This document shows positions 5,152-25,515 of a stretch of 26,710 bases of DNA, piece after piece. Source of the DNA: a virus. Numbering within the stretch: the stretch's first letter is position 1; each line of letters begins with the position of its first letter. The stretch covers positions 1 through 26,710 of the IMG/VR virus record IMGVR_UViG_3300035034_001643; one strand, 5' to 3'. Made by a program: the position numbers and the translations under genes. The notes beneath the pieces are model-generated. The model did no database searches. It was not told the origin of the DNA and worked only from the letters and a program-made list of their open reading frames with translations.

Positions 5152-5808
5152 TCTCAATCATTCCTTTTATTGTGCTGGAAAACTGCTTTGCAGCTTTTTT
5201 ATCCATAACAGAAGCTATAGCTGATTGTATCAGAGTTACCTCCGAAACGGAAGAAAGATTTAAATGTTTCTGAACCATAAGAACCTCATCCCACATATAG
5301 CCTACCGGGAATTGGTGTACGTCTTGCATGGAATACCCATGCACTATGAGAAAACTAATCTGTCTTCTTAGTCCTAAGAGGAAATCGCTAAAGCCGAAGT
5401 CACTTTTGTCATGTGAGACGACATTCCCTCGGCCATCGTGATTACCGTCTCTATGCACTTTTCCAGCGCGTCCTCCGTGAAGAATGTCAGACTTCCTGCC
5501 AGGTGGAGTATCTCTAGCTGCAATGTGAACGGCAGTTTAGAGACTATCCAAGTATTCTCTTTAGTAGTCGGTTCACCTATTGCAAGACAGATGGTTTCGC
5601 TTAGGAGTTGTGGGAAGCTATCCACTGCAAACTTTAGTGCTTGCTGTGGGCCTTTCTCTTGATAGACTTGGAAAGTCTTCTCTATCGCTACATAGTTATT
5701 TGCTGTTAGTGTGGAAATATCTTTTATACTAAGAGCGTTCACTTTTAGGATTTTTCCATCGGGGAGGGAAACTTCCCCCCCGAGATTCTTTAGTAATTCT
5801 ATAGTCAT
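5141..5808 (-). CDS. Tail assembly chaperone, long form by -1 frameshift (GT-like)
   Basis: The T-like frame (5141-5458) lies directly before the tape measure gene and overlaps the G-like frame in the -1 register. Its only upstream initiator is a GTG at 5458 inside G with no good SD, so expression by ribosomal slippage is more likely. Slippage at the A-run 5404-5407 would join G residues 1-135 to 87 T-frame residues, giving about 222 aa. The T part begins SDFGFSDFLLGLRRQ and contains a conserved-looking MWDEVLMVQKHLN segment. In lambda the equivalent gpGT holds tape measure and tube subunits together during tail assembly. The coordinates span both frames; the join is at about 5404. The frame arrangement is directly seen; that slippage occurs is inferred. 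Confidence 0.75.
5374..5808 (-). CDS. Tail assembly chaperone, short form (G-like)
   Basis: A 144-residue protein between the tail tube and tape measure genes, the position of lambda G. It should act as a chaperone that coats the tape measure during tail assembly and is absent from the virion. The sequence begins MTIELLKNLGGEVSLPDGK and has a helix-rich middle, similar to phage tail chaperones. ATG 5808 is preferred to the upstream in-frame TTG at 5826, because the TTG overlaps the only SD-like sequence (TTGAGG). The SD-to-ATG gap of 12 bases is rather long, so expression may be modest or coupled. The reading frame ends at TAG (5374-5376), about 30 bases past the proposed slip site. The last nine residues are therefore unique to the short form. 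Confidence 0.8.
   Translation of the reverse strand: MTIELLKNLGGEVSLPDGKILKVNALSIKDISTLTANNYVAIEKTFQVYQEKGPQQALKFAVDSFPQLLSETICLAIGEPTTKENTWIVSKLPFTLQLEILHLAGSLTFFTEDALEKCIETVITMAEGMSSHMTKVTSALAISS
5402..5408 (-). other. Candidate -1 ribosomal slippage site (C-AAA-AGT)
   Basis: On the minus strand the G frame reads ATG ACA AAA GTG here, with four consecutive A. A tRNA-Lys on AAA (5404-5406) can slip back one base to AAA (5405-5407), and the next codon is then AGT in the T frame. It lies inside the region where both frames are open (5374-5458). It is not the lambda GGGAAAG heptamer. An alternative weaker site is the GGA reading as GGG about 20 bases upstream. Downstream lies a short inverted repeat (TCTTAG-GA-CTAAGA) just past the slip site, but no strong pseudoknot is obvious by eye. 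Confidence 0.55.
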
Positions 5809-5834: not shown

Positions 5835-6623
5835 TTAGATTATTACAGGAACACCATCAATGTAAATGGCTTGTTGGTTACGTGGCTTTAGTGCCTCGAT
5901 AGCAAGGGTTAGAGTTTGGAACTCTGTTCCGATAAAAGCAAAATCCCCCTCAGCACGTACGTTGACCGACGGCAGGAGAACCACTTTATCAGAACCGCCA
6001 GCGTTATTAGAAACAAACATCAACTGTACAAGAATTTGCTGCCCTCCTGAAATTACCCGAGTGCGGGTAGACCCAAGAATATCATAATCTACTGTTATGT
6101 CTGTCCCCGCGACAAGGGTTCCACCTTCAAGAATTTCAAGAAGACCGTTTGATTCAACTACCCGGTAATCTACTCCTTGAACGAAAGTATTTGTTCCGTC
6201 TGACACTACAACAGTAGAGGCAACGACATTGCGGTTTCCCATGATGTTGGCCTCTGTCTGGCCTAGAATATATGCACGGTTTAACTGCACCCCGTTTATC
6301 ACTTCCCCTGTTATGGAAGCTGCTGTTTGTGCGACAGTCAGTTTATCTCCAAGAAAGAACAAGGCCAAATTGTCTTCGTCAATATTGTCTGTAGTAACTG
6401 TTCCAGTGCGAGAAATGTTTGTGACAATTTCTGCATCTTTCTCACGCAATCCAGATGCCGAGCTGAAGTGTTCTTGAGTCTCTGGCTCAATAGTGAGAGA
6501 GAATTCTGGGGTGTTCCCAATATACCGGAAACCCTCAAAGGCCTGGCCTACACAGCGAGCCATGTAGATGTCTCCGCCACCAATCGTTAGGTTACTAGAA
6601 CCACCTGTATTACATGACACCAT
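5835..6623 (-). CDS. Major tail tube protein (lambda V position)
   Basis: A 262-residue protein placed between the tail completion gene and the G/GT chaperone, where siphovirus tail tube proteins lie. It is rich in Val, Thr, Gly and Asn with alternating hydrophobic residues and few helices, as expected for the beta-sandwich tube subunit that stacks in hexameric rings around the tape measure. It has no membrane segment. It has a strong SD (AGGAGA) 6-8 bases before ATG 6623. The leader carries a run of ten A (6642-6651) and a 20-bp element at 6659-6678 shared with the regulatory region at 22.3 kb. This suggests its own promoter for a highly expressed structural protein. Assignment rests on position, composition and length rather than a diagnostic motif. 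Confidence 0.85.
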   Translation of the reverse strand: MVSCNTGGSSNLTIGGGDIYMARCVGQAFEGFRYIGNTPEFSLTIEPETQEHFSSASGLREKDAEIVTNISRTGTVTTDNIDEDNLALFFLGDKLTVAQTAASITGEVINGVQLNRAYILGQTEANIMGNRNVVASTVVVSDGTNTFVQGVDYRVVESNGLLEILEGGTLVAGTDITVDYDILGSTRTRVISGGQQILVQLMFVSNNAGGSDKVVLLPSVNVRAEGDFAFIGTEFQTLTLAIEALKPRNQQAIYIDGVPVII

Positions 6624-6658
6624 TTGTCTTCTCCTGAGTTATTTTTTTTTTGGTTATC

Positions 6659-6678
6659 TATTCTATACAATACACTCT
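6659..6678 (-). promoter_or_regulatory. Candidate promoter/control element ahead of tail tube gene
   Basis: In the only sizeable gap of the tail module, the minus strand reads AGAGTGTATTGTATAGAATA. It contains a good -10-like TAGAAT (6660-6665) but no -35 hexamer at 16-18 bases. The same 20-mer, 17 of 20 positions identical, occurs on the plus strand at 22307-22326. The element ends 35 bases before the tail tube ATG. It could be a phage-specific or activator-dependent promoter, or a protein-binding site. Confidence 0.45.
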
Positions 6679-6705
6679 ACACTTATGTGTAAAGTAATGC
6701 AACAA

Positions 6706-7209
6706 TTAATTATATGGGTCACACGCATTGTCCAAATATTCTATGCTAAGGTCCAGCCAAAAGAAAGCCCGGTAAGATATTTCATCAGCAGGTCGAACAA
6801 CCCCCGCAGACATTTTAATCTCTGAAACTACTTTTATGACTCCAAAGAAATCACGTGGGTTGCGCCTTCTCTGGTCTTCCATTTCTTGAGCTATTCTTCT
6901 TCTAACATCCGCCATAAGCCTGTAGGCAGGCGCGGTATTGTTACCTTTACCTTTCTCGTCTAGGACAAAACCCTGTAGCACCATGTTCAAGCTTACCTTT
7001 TGTATCGGGTTATTGAAGCTTTCTGCTATCACGCCGGGCTGTATGGCTTGCTCTAGGATACTTACCATAGGTATGGGGTCTTTATCTCCGAAAAGCCCTC
7101 GACCTATGAATACAGCACCTTCCAGGTCATGTTCGTACCCGTTCGCTATGGTTATCTCTTCTAGTAGACTTTTCAGCCCTTGTAGTATGCGTAGTCTTAG
7201 TGGTTCCAT
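6706..7209 (-). CDS. Tail terminator/completion protein (lambda U position)
   Basis: A 167-residue protein between the Z-like gene and the tail tube gene, matching the place of lambda gpU, which caps the finished tube and allows joining to the head. The N-terminus is helical (MEPLRLRILQGLKSLLEEI). A beta-rich middle and a basic stretch around EDQRRRNPRD follow. Several siphovirus minor tail proteins share this pattern. ATG 7209 lies two bases after the upstream stop and has only a weak SD (GGA), so translation is probably coupled to the Z-like gene. The family is assigned by synteny and general pattern; a different tail-completion fold is possible. Confidence 0.7.
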   Translation of the reverse strand: MEPLRLRILQGLKSLLEEITIANGYEHDLEGAVFIGRGLFGDKDPIPMVSILEQAIQPGVIAESFNNPIQKVSLNMVLQGFVLDEKGKGNNTAPAYRLMADVRRRIAQEMEDQRRRNPRDFFGVIKVVSEIKMSAGVVRPADEISYRAFFWLDLSIEYLDNACDPYN

Positions 7210-8520: not shown

Positions 8521-8559
8521 TATGTTTATTCCTCATATGTACTAAAATATTGTTTATTT

Positions 8560-8600
8560 AAAGTAAACGACGAAGCCACTTTTTAAGAAGGCTTCGCCGC
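8560..8600 (-). terminator. Hairpin terminator/attenuator after major capsid gene
   Basis: Minus-strand arms 8600-8590 (GCGGCGAAGCC) and 8577-8567 (GGCTTCGTCGT) pair over 11 bp with two G-U pairs around a 12-base loop. The 3' flank is T-rich but interrupted (TTTACTTTAAA). It begins 12 bases past the capsid stop. It would cut or reduce transcription after the capsid gene, setting capsid mRNA above connector and tail mRNA, or protect the 3' end. Confidence 0.7.
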
Positions 8601-8611
8601 TTCTGGGTTAC

Positions 8612-11351: not shown

Positions 11352-12966
11352 TGTTTACTCCTCGGGGCTCTATTTGCCCTCCTTTACCTTTCACTGAGTT
11401 CATCATATTACTTTCTATGTCTGTTGACAAGCCTCTTTCTTCCAATCTCTGCTTTTCGGTTGCCAGCTCTTCCAGGATGTCATCCCAATCCGTTCCAAGT
11501 TTAGCTGCTTCTCTTTCCCGTGTACTGAGCTGAGAGGATACTCTTAAAGCTGCTGCTTGGGTTTCTTTTAGTTCATCAATCTGACCTCTTCCAGCACCAA
11601 TCCACGAACAGCTTCCAAAAGACTCTTTTCCTAAGGGTGCGTAAAATAGTTCTGCATCATTAGGAGTAATGGTTTTGAACCTGCCAGACATCATAGCCTC
11701 TTCCAACCAAAGAAGGTAAATGTCTGTAGCAAGTTTATCCGCGATATTGGCTTTACGGGCTTGCATGTTCTTCCAAGTCTCGTTCATAGCTGCACGCGCT
11801 GAGGAATAATTTGACTGGCTAAAATCCTTAGATAGCTCTTCATAAGACACACCCAAACTGGCTGCAATATGTCTCAGCAGGGAGGACTCAAACTCGGTTC
11901 CTAGGGGGCCTCCTTGTCCTGGAGCCACCATTTTAAGTGTGCTGCCAGGGTAAAGGTGGACTAACTTAGTTCCATCAATATGCATATTTTTAGAGTTTTC
12001 TGCATAGGTTGCCAAGCCGCTCAAATGCTGGTTGACCATTTTAGAGTAGTTTCCTTGCCCAAGATTACCTGCTCCTATAGCCTGGTAAGCTGCTTCGGAA
12101 GGCATGTCTGATTCAATCACCGCAGCATATGTGGCCTGAACTACTGCGTTTTGTAATACAATCTTGCGGAATTTCTTACACATGTGTAAGTCTTCTAGGA
12201 CCGCTGTCAACTGAGATATTCCTCGTGTCTGTGATGCTCTGTCCTGTTCCAAGTAATGTAGTACCATCTTGCGACCCCAATACTTGTAAGCAGGTACTCT
12301 TTTGTATGTAAAGTTTGTGGTGTGTTGGTAGTCTAGCGGGTGGTGGTTTAGTATGTGATAGGCTACAGGAGCACCGTATTTATCTTTTTCTACACCGCCT
12401 CTTAATAGTTCTGTTGGCATTGAGGAGTATGGGTTCCGTAACCTGTCAGGGTCAATAATCTGAATGGCTGTTGCAAAAGGTCTGTCTTTCCTTTTTATCC
12501 ACTCAGCACTTGCCAGAACTTCGCCTGTCTGGCAATGAATGGCAACAGCTAACCGTATTAGGGATGTGAAGTTGTTAATGCGAGAGGCATCCACCCAGTT
12601 ATCACCACTTTCAGCATAGGCAGAAAAAGCTTGTTCCATCTCGTCTTTAAACTCTTTAGCCCATTCTTTAGTCTTCCCTAGTAACTTATATTTTGGGGTG
12701 ACTCGAATTTTAAACTGGTTTCCTACCACGCCATTCTTTGCCATCTGCAAAGCCCCAGCCATATACCCGTCATTGCGGATAGCGTCCTTAGACCTCGCGT
12801 CTAGTAGTTCCTTGTCTGGGAGTATTTCTAAATCCGCAGAAAATGATGGGGGGTTCCACGAAGCGAGAGTTCTTTCAAATCTCTCCGCCCCGTCAAAAGC
12901 TACACCTATGCCAGCAGTCATAGAGTCGTCGACCTTGGCAATTCCTTCTAAGTTATTTTCATCCAT
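11344..12966 (-). CDS. Portal protein (lambda gpB family)
   Basis: A 540-residue lambda-type portal, which forms the dodecameric ring at one capsid vertex for DNA entry and tail joining. Family features: DAIRNDGYMAGALQMAKNGVVGNQFKI near residues 60-87, EVLASAEW around 145, IQIIDPDRLRNP, VLHYLEQDRASQTRGISQL around 236-255, and SLGVSYEELSKDFSQSNYSSARAA around 365-392. The C-terminal 90 residues are charged and helical, resembling the part trimmed from lambda gpB. ATG 12966 follows the gpW stop closely and has no clear SD, so it is probably translated by coupling. The stop overlaps the protease gene by 8 bases. Confidence 0.95.
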   Translation of the reverse strand: MDENNLEGIAKVDDSMTAGIGVAFDGAERFERTLASWNPPSFSADLEILPDKELLDARSKDAIRNDGYMAGALQMAKNGVVGNQFKIRVTPKYKLLGKTKEWAKEFKDEMEQAFSAYAESGDNWVDASRINNFTSLIRLAVAIHCQTGEVLASAEWIKRKDRPFATAIQIIDPDRLRNPYSSMPTELLRGGVEKDKYGAPVAYHILNHHPLDYQHTTNFTYKRVPAYKYWGRKMVLHYLEQDRASQTRGISQLTAVLEDLHMCKKFRKIVLQNAVVQATYAAVIESDMPSEAAYQAIGAGNLGQGNYSKMVNQHLSGLATYAENSKNMHIDGTKLVHLYPGSTLKMVAPGQGGPLGTEFESSLLRHIAASLGVSYEELSKDFSQSNYSSARAAMNETWKNMQARKANIADKLATDIYLLWLEEAMMSGRFKTITPNDAELFYAPLGKESFGSCSWIGAGRGQIDELKETQAAALRVSSQLSTREREAAKLGTDWDDILEELATEKQRLEERGLSTDIESNMMNSVKGKGGQIEPRGVNNE

Positions 12967-13188: not shown

Positions 13189-15282
13189 CTATCCCAGTAT
13201 CTTAGCAAGTTCTTCATCAGTGTACACTTTATCCGTTTCTTTATCAAATGGTTTATTCCCTTCTGCATCTACTATGAGAGGATTATCATCCCAACCCTGA
13301 GCCCAAGGTGGTGGAGCAGACCAGTCTATTAGCTCTAGTCCACCAAACCTGTGAGATATAGCTACAGCATAGGAGTAGACAATTAAATCCCAAGCTTCGT
13401 TCCTTTTACCTACTTGTATCCATTTAGCAGGAGTAAACCTTTCAGCCGTTAACTCTTGATAGAACCATGGCTCCAACCAATTAGGGAAGTTTATTCTGCC
13501 CCCGCCGGCTTCTTCTCTGTCCAACATCTGATTTACTCGGTTCTTGAGCTCAAACGTGTTTAGAATCAAAACAGGTATTTCTCCACCAGCCTCAGCTTTA
13601 CGGTCTTTGCGTTTTGAGTCCGGGAAGCTTATTGCTGTTCTAGGAACTGTTTTCAGCGACGAACCTTTAGTAAGGATGAACCGTTGATAAAGCTTAGGGT
13701 CTTCTGTGTGGTCATTCTTCAAATATCTGTAGAAGTCATAAGCCGTGGAGGTTACTCCTTTTTGTCCTCCAGAATCACAGCTTACCGCTTTTAGTTGCAT
13801 CTTACGGGATGAACCATCCGCGAGCTCATATGTCTGGTTGAGAACCTGAGGTATTATGAGTTTCCAGTCTTCTAAATAGGCCCCCGGCTTAACCCACAGA
13901 CGCTCCCCGTCGGCATCAAGCCTTTCTGATTTTACAATGTTAAAGCGGTCAATAACCCAAACATCTCCATGTTCTCCGAACCCATGCACCTGTACAACGA
14001 ACATGTTTTTTTGAACATCTATAGACGCAATCAAGAAACGAACACCTGGCGGAACTAATCTCTTACCAAAGTCTTTCGCTCTCGCTTGGATGTGCTCTGG
14101 CAACCTATCCACATTATCGGCCTTATACATGTAGGGAGCACCTACTGTAGTATTAAAGAAAGTCTTTAGTTTCTCTTCTGAGCCCGTTCTCTCGTAGTCA
14201 GACTCAGCGTTGAGAAACTCTTCCAACATTTCAGACCATTCAGAGAAACAAGCAGCCACTCCTGTCATCCAGTAACTATCAATGGTTCCTTGTGGTGGCT
14301 CCCCTTGGATGTTATCTTCTGCGTCGAAATAGCAGTAATCAGGAAGCCATTTCCCTTCTAAGTTTAATTTGTTTTTACTATTACGTCCTTTAGAGTCTCC
14401 TCCGTGTTTGTACCTTTTCGAGCACGAAGGGCATTCAAGATACACGGTACTTGCGGTAGTAGGTATGTCCTTTCCTTGCTTCCACTTAAGTAAGTTCCAA
14501 ACAGGCTCAAATCTCTTCTGACATCCTGTACATTTCCAGTACCATCTTTTACGGGTTCCCTCATTATAAAGAGACATTATTTTCTTGGCTGGAGGGGCTT
14601 CGTGCAGTGAGGAGGGATGCCAGCTAGGATTAGACACTTCTTCTCCCGGGGTCGACTCCACAACAGTCATCGCTCGCTTTTTAAAGGTGCGTGTACGTTT
14701 ACGAGCTAAGGTGAAGCAATCCCCTTCCCCCCCTATGTTCTCGTCTATCCTGTCATAGTCTGTTATAAACACCCTACGAACCGAACGTCCGGATAGCTCT
14801 GTTATCGTAGGCCAAGACATGTTCAGAAGAGTCCCAGACACGAATTTTTTCTTAAATATTCCCCTGTTGTGCTTGCCGGGTAACAAGCGGTCATCCAAGG
14901 CTTGTGTGTGTCTTAGTAGCTTATCTAAGTTATCCTCCGAAAAGTTCTTAGCTCTTGTTTGTGTTGTTTGGTAGATAATCATGCCACTGGGGTCACAAAC
15001 TTGCGTGTACAAAATCCAATTACACACCATATCTGTTTTACCTGCTTGGCTGGGACCCACGAACACCAAACCGGTGAAGTCTAGGCTCTCCATATTGTTG
15101 CCTGGCTCTATCATGTAGGGTGTCATACTGGACTTCCAAGGCCCAACGTAACTGCCAATATTCTTGATGTAGCGATACTTCTCAGCACACTCTGTCACCG
15201 TCATCTTGTCCTCAGGACGTAAAGACCGTGCTACTGCCGAAAATATTCGCTCTAAGCTACTATATCTGGGTGAATTACTCAA
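13189..15282 (-). CDS. Terminase large subunit (GpA family): packaging ATPase and nuclease
   Basis: A protein of about 697 residues that cuts concatemeric DNA and drives it into the prohead. Walker A GPSQAGKT is at about 76-83. The Walker B-like segment is FITDYD at 172-177, followed by GGEGD. A probable zinc site comprises Cys251, Cys254, Cys284 and Cys287. The RNase-H-like nuclease has Asp422 (SIDVQK), Asp503 (SCDSGG) and Asp632 (EAWDLIVYSYA). The Walker B carries DYD instead of the common DE pair, as I recall for part of this family. No ATG lies near the start. I chose TTG 15282 (GAGG 9 bases upstream, 8-base overlap with the small subunit, TTGAGTAA) over an in-frame TTG at 15309 that lacks an SD. 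GpA-type enzymes usually make cohesive ends (inference). Confidence 0.95.
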   Translation of the reverse strand: MSNSPRYSSLERIFSAVARSLRPEDKMTVTECAEKYRYIKNIGSYVGPWKSSMTPYMIEPGNNMESLDFTGLVFVGPSQAGKTDMVCNWILYTQVCDPSGMIIYQTTQTRAKNFSEDNLDKLLRHTQALDDRLLPGKHNRGIFKKKFVSGTLLNMSWPTITELSGRSVRRVFITDYDRIDENIGGEGDCFTLARKRTRTFKKRAMTVVESTPGEEVSNPSWHPSSLHEAPPAKKIMSLYNEGTRKRWYWKCTGCQKRFEPVWNLLKWKQGKDIPTTASTVYLECPSCSKRYKHGGDSKGRNSKNKLNLEGKWLPDYCYFDAEDNIQGEPPQGTIDSYWMTGVAACFSEWSEMLEEFLNAESDYERTGSEEKLKTFFNTTVGAPYMYKADNVDRLPEHIQARAKDFGKRLVPPGVRFLIASIDVQKNMFVVQVHGFGEHGDVWVIDRFNIVKSERLDADGERLWVKPGAYLEDWKLIIPQVLNQTYELADGSSRKMQLKAVSCDSGGQKGVTSTAYDFYRYLKNDHTEDPKLYQRFILTKGSSLKTVPRTAISFPDSKRKDRKAEAGGEIPVLILNTFELKNRVNQMLDREEAGGGRINFPNWLEPWFYQELTAERFTPAKWIQVGKRNEAWDLIVYSYAVAISHRFGGLELIDWSAPPPWAQGWDDNPLIVDAEGNKPFDKETDKVYTDEELAKILG

Positions 15283-22204: not shown

Positions 22205-22233
22205 TTATCGCCTCACGTGTTTAGTATGTTCTC

Positions 22234-22262
22234 ATAATGACGATTATAGTTTAGTCTGTCAA
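22234..22262 (-). promoter_or_regulatory. Leftward promoter for the replication/virion convoy
   Basis: On the minus strand a perfect -35 TTGACA (22262-22257) is followed after 17 bases by CATTAT (22239-22234), four of six to the -10 consensus. A perfect TATAAT also occurs within the spacer, too close to this -35 to pair with it. It lies 30 bases before ATG 22204. It is the best sigma-70-type promoter in the window and the only strong one ahead of 22 kb of co-directed genes. Confidence 0.65.
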
Positions 22263-22289
22263 CTATTAATTGCATTGCTATCTTTTCTA

Positions 22290-22326
22290 TTGAAAGTATC
22301 TTGTAAAGAGTGTACTCTAAAGAATA
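22290..22326 (+). promoter_or_regulatory. Rightward control region with inverted repeat and shared 20-bp motif
   Basis: TTGAAA (22290-22295) lies 17 bases before a weak TACTCT (22313-22318). Overlapping it is AGAGTGTACTCT (22307-22318), an inverted repeat of AGAGT with a 2-base spacer and a candidate operator. The 20-mer 22307-22326 matches 17 of 20 bases of the element before the tail tube gene and ends 36 bases before ATG 22363. It may be the HTH gene promoter, an operator for that HTH protein, or both. Confidence 0.45.
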
Positions 22327-22377
22327 TTACGGTTGTCGATAACACTAACACGGTAGGATATTATGGTAGGAAGAAAT

Positions 22378-22614
22378 ATGGGGAAGCTAGCTTCTATGTT
22401 AAAGAAGACGTTTCCAAAACAATTAAACACAGAAGAAAGAATTGATGTTGAGTGGTTATCTAATCAGTTAGGCGTAACACAAACATGTATCTATAAATGG
22501 TTTAATAGTGACCGGTTGACTGGTGCACGAGTTACAGAGCTTGTAGAGCTTTCTAAGAAAGTTCCCGGCGCAATAGAACGCGAGAAAATAGATTTTTTAG
22601 AATTCTTAGTGTAG
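22378..22614 (+). CDS. Small helix-turn-helix (Cro-like) transcription regulator
   Basis: A protein of about 78 residues, transcribed opposite to the main convoy. The helix-turn-helix is VEWLSNQLGVTQTCIYKWFNSDRL, with hydrophobic and Gly positions as in Cro/CI-type regulators. The following TELVELSKKVPG resembles the helix after the HTH in phage Cro proteins. The N-terminus is basic (LKKTFPK). ATG 22378 has AGGA 6 bases upstream; an in-frame ATG at 22363 would add five residues but its AGGA is only 4 bases away. It probably controls the divergent region 22205-22362, which holds a strong leftward promoter and an inverted repeat. No larger CI-like repressor or integrase is present in the window, so lysogeny is neither shown nor excluded. 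Confidence 0.8.
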   Translation: MGKLASMLKKTFPKQLNTEERIDVEWLSNQLGVTQTCIYKWFNSDRLTGARVTELVELSKKVPGAIEREKIDFLEFLV

Positions 22615-25333: not shown

Positions 25334-25371
25334 ATTACTTGTGAAGTAAGATAAACTGTACCTTTGAGTAC

Positions 25372-25410
25372 AAACACCCTTGGAACGCGCCTTCAAGGGT
25401 GTTTTCTTTT
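25372..25410 (+). terminator. Rho-independent terminator after primase-helicase
   Basis: AAACACCCTTG (25372-25382) pairs perfectly with CAAGGGTGTTT (25394-25404) around an 11-base loop, followed by a T-tract to 25410 (TTTTCTTTT). It stands 38 bases past the stop codon and should end the HTH/primase-helicase transcript. Confidence 0.9.
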
Positions 25411-25462
25411 GAGCTATTTTAGGAAAACTATAGAACTATTAGTTTAGTAATTCAATTTAAAG

Positions 25463-25492
25463 TTGACTTCTAAGGGATGTGCGTGTTACATT
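25463..25492 (+). promoter_or_regulatory. Promoter for the right-hand small-gene cluster
   Basis: TTGACT (25463-25468), five of six to consensus, and TACATT (25487-25492), four of six, are spaced by 18 bases, directly followed by TATAAAC. It lies between the terminator and an AGGAGA SD. It would start a separate transcript for the genes from 25516 onward. Confidence 0.6.
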
Positions 25493-25515
25493 ATATAAAC
25501 CCTTAGGAGATAAAT

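Follow-up and report, generated by a model that had tools for sequence, protein, structure and literature searches.

Do two similar 20-bp sequences, one in the leader of a phage tail tube gene and the other in the leader of an early regulator gene, form one shared regulatory site? The pair lies in a 26.7-kb virus record, the whole of which was analysed here (hereafter, the window). We consider a shared site possible, with a probability of roughly 0.4, and coincidence nearly as likely.

The window and its gene order

The window is a genome fragment, about half of the genome, of a chi-like siphophage of the Casjensviridae. It has the gpA-type terminase and the conserved order of replication and structural genes that define this family, and its TerL shares 48% identity with that of Synechococcus virus S-ESS1 and 62% with that of a short contig (L008). 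As in S-ESS1 and DSS3-P1, HTH and primase genes diverge from the order DUF2800-DUF2815-PolA-SNF2-TerS-TerL-portal-protease-decoration-MCP-tail. The leftward genes span 628-22204, replication first and head and tail after, and the rightward genes, encoding a Cro-like HTH protein and a primase/helicase, run from 22363. Four inner gaps exceed 60 nt (6624-6705, 8521-8611, 22205-22362 and 25334-25515), and the two copies of the motif occupy the first and third of these:

5835-6623, minus strand: major tail (tube) protein gene (phrog_807, E 1.8e-54)
6659-6678, minus strand: tail-leader copy of the 20-bp motif, AGAGTGTATTGTATAGAATA
6706-7209, minus strand: tail terminator gene (phrog_5078)
22307-22326, plus strand: early-leader copy of the motif, AGAGTGTACTCTAAAGAATA, with the near-palindrome AGAGT-GT-ACTCT inside
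22363-22614, plus strand: Cro-like HTH gene (start at 22363, or at 22378 with a better SD), with homologues in at least 17 casjensvirus control regions

The other two gaps hold elements of their own. A strong hairpin lies 3' of the capsid gene (8565-8602, minus strand; gap z -3.3), perhaps a partial terminator within the late operon. At 25372-25404 (plus strand) a terminator-like hairpin with a T-rich tail precedes the window's best sigma70-like promoter (TTGACT-18-TACATT, 25463-25492, plus strand).

Similarity of the two copies and its chance level

The sequences and coordinates given for both copies by the first-pass annotation are exact, as is its identity of 17/20. Its claim of equal distance to an ATG holds for one choice of start. 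For the tail copy, the distance to the tail-tube ATG at 6623 (good SD, AGGAG) is 35 nt; for the early copy, it is 36 nt to 22363. However, the ATG at 22378, which that annotation itself took as the HTH start, has a better SD than 22363 (AGGAAG, ~6-nt spacing) and gives 51 nt; the spacings agree with one start and differ with the other.

The pair is the best 20-mer match between the sizeable gaps of the window. Among its five larger gaps, 17/20 was reached by 6 of 400 shuffles. A shuffled tail gap reached it in 8/5000 trials against the control gap, in 31/5000 against any of the four other large gaps and in 29/150 (19%) against the whole window. The match is real, yet modestly better than chance, and the figure varies with the comparison chosen (0.002-0.015 at gap level).

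No third copy with three or fewer mismatches occurs in the window; the tail copy matches just the early copy, and a union pattern finds these two alone. The search for further copies that the first-pass annotation had proposed thus returned nothing good within the window, and across ~180 related loci (2.5 Mb) neither 20-mer was present at 16/20 or better. An exact motif scan across viral contigs gave no match. The nearest approach to a third copy is doubtful:

13211-13230, minus strand: weak match to the early copy (15/20), containing AGTGTACACT, within the last ~40 nt of TerL

The TerL-end palindrome was rejected as a third site, as it is not kept in the closest relative (L008) and 10-bp palindromes are at chance level in the window (23 found versus ~26 expected). 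The tail leader showed no excess similarity to the TerL-end stretch of the same phage (percentile 0.45), nor was it significant when its 18-mers were compared with the whole window (20/30 shuffles equalled it). Dispersed operators are recognised by several near-identical sites in gaps across the genome; the window, about half a genome, has two at 17/20 and the doubtful one at 15/20.

These figures bear most directly on coincidence, in which two AT-rich leaders with separate, unrelated elements (the hairpin of the tail leader and the extension of the HTH leader) happen to agree at 17 of 20 bases. This explanation falls just short of a shared site in our estimation. The whole-window chance, the missing third copy and conservation, a spacing that hinges on the choice of start codon and the differing symmetry of the copies (see below) are all consistent with it. 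A gap-level chance below 0.02 in every test argues against it, as does the recurrence of repeated elements at the tail-tube leader of relatives.

The early copy and its control region

Two overlapping promoters are predicted upstream of the early copy:

22256-22284, plus strand: rightward promoter, CTGTCA-17-TATCTT, counterpart of the TTGTCA-N17-TATAT of the family
22234-22262, minus strand: leftward promoter, TTGACA-17-CATTAT, which shares bases with the rightward -35

Divergent, mutually overlapping promoters with a TTGTCAA core were found upstream of the Cro-like HTH gene and primase in 17/17 relatives examined (L004, L005, L006, L029, L030, L035, L039, L040, L049, L055, L056, L058, L061, L070, L071, L079 and L093), most with TATAT-like -10 boxes 17 nt after TTGTCAA. 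This conservation shows that the predicted early promoters of the window lie upstream of the motif, which starts 22 nt downstream of the rightward -10 (TATCTT). From the promoter anchor at CTGTCA to the start codon the HTH-gene leader measures 107 nt, versus typically 54-65 nt in relatives. Because it lies downstream of the conserved promoter in an unusually long leader, the early copy is placed in a lineage-specific leader extension and not in the main early promoter. The conserved divergent pair therefore rules out the motif as the main promoter of the HTH gene, and the suggestion in the first-pass annotation of a phage-specific promoter at the early regulator was not borne out. Like the lambdoid pL/pR region, the arrangement has divergent promoters that overlap and a Cro-like HTH gene after them, but the motif sits past the rightward promoter rather than between the two or across them.

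Casjensvirus control regions encode a conserved Cro-like family to which the HTH protein belongs; its alignment-based model reached a pLDDT of 90. The best structural neighbours of the model were Cro proteins (3bd1), with E-values that were not significant, and a fold search with the single-sequence structure was uninformative. Single-protein scans for relatives of the tail-tube, HTH and primase proteins returned none. No CI-like gene was found in the window; the Cro-like HTH gene adjoins one of the two copies.

Weak local promoters of the sigma70 type might also account for the pair, if bases 7-12 of the motif (TATTGT in the tail copy, TACTCT in the early copy) were -10 hexamers and the common bases a promoter and start region. 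The early copy has a candidate ranked 32 of 53,360 positions (TTGAAA-17-TACTCT). At the tail copy, where the first-pass annotation saw no -35 at normal spacing, two candidates do exist, TTGCAT-17-TAGAGT and TTTACA-15-TATTGT, although both are weak (ranks 77 and 150 of the same 53,360). In three relatives (L147, L159 and L178), TTGACT-17-TGTA is part of the tail leader and recurs in the protease gene before the capsid genes. We nevertheless regard local promoters as improbable: strong conserved promoters sit upstream of the early copy, the -35 spacing of the tail copy is poor, and hexamers alone leave the identity over AGAGTGTA and AGAATA unexplained.

The tail copy and its hairpin

The tail copy overlaps a second element of the tail-tube leader:

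6673-6696, minus strand: 10-bp hairpin (inverted repeat), TACTTTACACATAAGTGTAGAGTG, with a 3' arm that takes in bases 1-6 of the tail copy

The hairpin has a folding z of -2.45 against shuffles. Its role as an intrinsic terminator was ruled out, as no T-run follows. It has no counterpart at the early copy, and the AGAGT-GT-ACTCT near-palindrome of the early copy is broken in the tail copy. An RNA-level leader element 35 nt before both start codons (a stabilising or processing hairpin, or a translational operator) would fit this fold, the position of both copies in probable transcribed leaders and the hairpins that S-ESS1 and DSS3-P1 also have after the tail-terminator stop, but it is the least probable of the explanations, as the early leader folds no better than shuffles (z +1.5), an Rfam search gave no match, and the repeats of relatives, which often take the form of DNA palindromes, are found at promoters too.

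Repeated elements in the tail-tube leaders of relatives

The tail leader is shorter in most relatives (median 35 nt), and in the closest relative with both regions (L021) it is 27 nt long and holds no element. In 8/61 relatives, versus ~2 expected, the tail leader had a second copy elsewhere (18-mers) that beat all 30 shuffles, a count that overstates independence since the loci are akin to one another. Near-identical elements were found in the tail and decoration leaders of L166 (GGTAAACAAAAAGTTRAC, positions 5676 and 9945) and L097 (AAGTTCAACTTWAAGGTGA, positions 11645 and 15307). In L147, L159 and L178, GTTGACTT-N14-GGCTGTA occurs in the tail leader and again inside the head-protease gene upstream of the capsid genes (5669/9907, 5792/9903 and 5778/9902, respectively); its variable bases match in L147. 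A 15-bp palindrome, TCAACTTTAAGTTGA, lies in the divergent control region of L095 and before an AlpA gene, and the tail leader has an imperfect version of it.

The most repeated element, TTGTCAGCTTA, has nine copies in the record of L162 (G004), versus 0 for a control (16812, 19789, 19810, 23582, 26610, 26699, 45190, and 52800 and 54785 on the minus strand). The tail leader has two of them, another precedes MCP, two more follow TerL and one stands 51 nt before an AlpA-like ORF. The copies often run on to an inverted TGACAA and are oriented with transcription as far as ORFs were callable, in a stoperator-like manner.

Across the loci, enrichment of 15-mers in common with the tail leader was seen at the end of TerL (7/55 in the top 2%) and the decoration/MCP boundary (7/41), whereas the ends of the portal, neck and TerS genes showed none; the kinship of the loci limits the independence of these counts as well. 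A PWM derived from the tail-leader sites of other phages, when applied to DSS3-P1-like phages, found the upstream regions of AlpA genes, the TerL end and regulator promoters. The second sites of these genome-specific elements were thus the TerL end, the capsid/decoration leader, the promoter of an AlpA-family regulator and, once, the divergent control region. They resemble dispersed operators of the stoperator kind.

A separate palindrome, TCAMC-N5-GKTGA, is dispersed in AchV4 (L003, L224, L225), L034, L081, L083, L007, L095 and L138, at the promoters of CI-like and AlpA regulators, TerL ends, DUF2815 gaps and tail-tube leaders. It occurs 12 times in AchV4 (control 0), nine times in the record of L138 and seven times in that of L095. 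Of the 12 in AchV4, seven fall largely between genes, in a region with 8.5% gap sequence. The density of the palindrome is only modestly higher in loci with lysogeny genes than in loci without (2.9 versus 1.6 per 50 kb). No copy occurs in the window, S-ESS1 or L021, and the integrase/CI-like/AlpA module found beside these operators is absent from the window as far as it extends.

A possible shared regulatory site

If the two copies are a shared regulatory site, both would be leader DNA sites (5' untranslated) recognised by a single regulator of the phage. The early copy would serve it in the extended leader of the HTH/primase operon, and the tail copy in the tail-tube leader inside the leftward late operon. 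The regulator bound there might slow or stop transcription begun upstream, or modulate a weak local promoter, and early regulation would be coupled to tail-tube output, in a mode akin to the dispersed operators (stoperators) of some temperate phages. That the two copies are bound, by whichever protein and with whatever effect, is what we infer.

This reading is reasonable because relatives repeat tail-leader elements, some of them common to a regulator promoter or divergent control region. L095, with one palindrome in its control region and tail leader, offers a precedent that makes it plausible for the pair. The activator or repressor site proposed in the first-pass annotation thus finds backing in kind from these repeats, but not from a third good copy or one in relatives. 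In its favour, the pair is also the best match between any two gaps of the window; the 19% whole-window chance, the unlike symmetry of the copies, the element-free tail leader of L021, the loss of the TerL-end match in L008 and the lack of TCAMC-N5-GKTGA and of the module beside it count against it.

Among known systems, the stoperators of Cluster A mycobacteriophages are immunity-repressor sites dispersed over the genome (PMC9283540). The elements described here are likewise short, in or near intergenic gaps and repeated between early and structural genes, and the nine asymmetric copies of L162 run in the sense of transcription, to the extent that ORFs were callable. They differ in that the 26.7-kb window has two copies and no such repressor gene was seen in it, and in that the sequences are unrelated and are candidate sites recognised from sequence alone. 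A second comparison is with AlpA/Cox/Apl-type excisionase-regulators and their tandem sites, such as 186 Apl (PMC7498355) and the AlpA-family protein of AchV4, which was described together with a CI-like protein (PMC7996906). Relatives have palindromes of this tail-leader type immediately before AlpA-family (PF05930) genes, whereas the window has neither an AlpA gene nor a TCAMC-N5-GKTGA site. Early, middle and late gene clusters were defined by RNA-seq in the related phage JS26 (PMC8754663), and a word search of that paper returned no phage promoter or motif analysis. In the open-access literature, we found no description of repeated sites in a tail-tube leader.

A broader proposal, which we hold to be doubtful, is that the tail-tube leader, the TerL end and the capsid/decoration leader of casjensviruses are fixed addresses for a family of operators peculiar to each genome. 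All sites of a phage would change sequence together, in step with its regulator, and the window would be the version of one lineage, with the Cro-like HTH protein as the regulator. Should this hold, a single regulator would control the early switch as well as the tail protein made in greatest amount, and casjensviruses, which infect Gram-negative hosts, would be added to the phages that have repressor sites dispersed among their structural genes. For culturable relatives such as AchV4 and DSS3-P1, the tail-tube leader marks out where such a test could be made.
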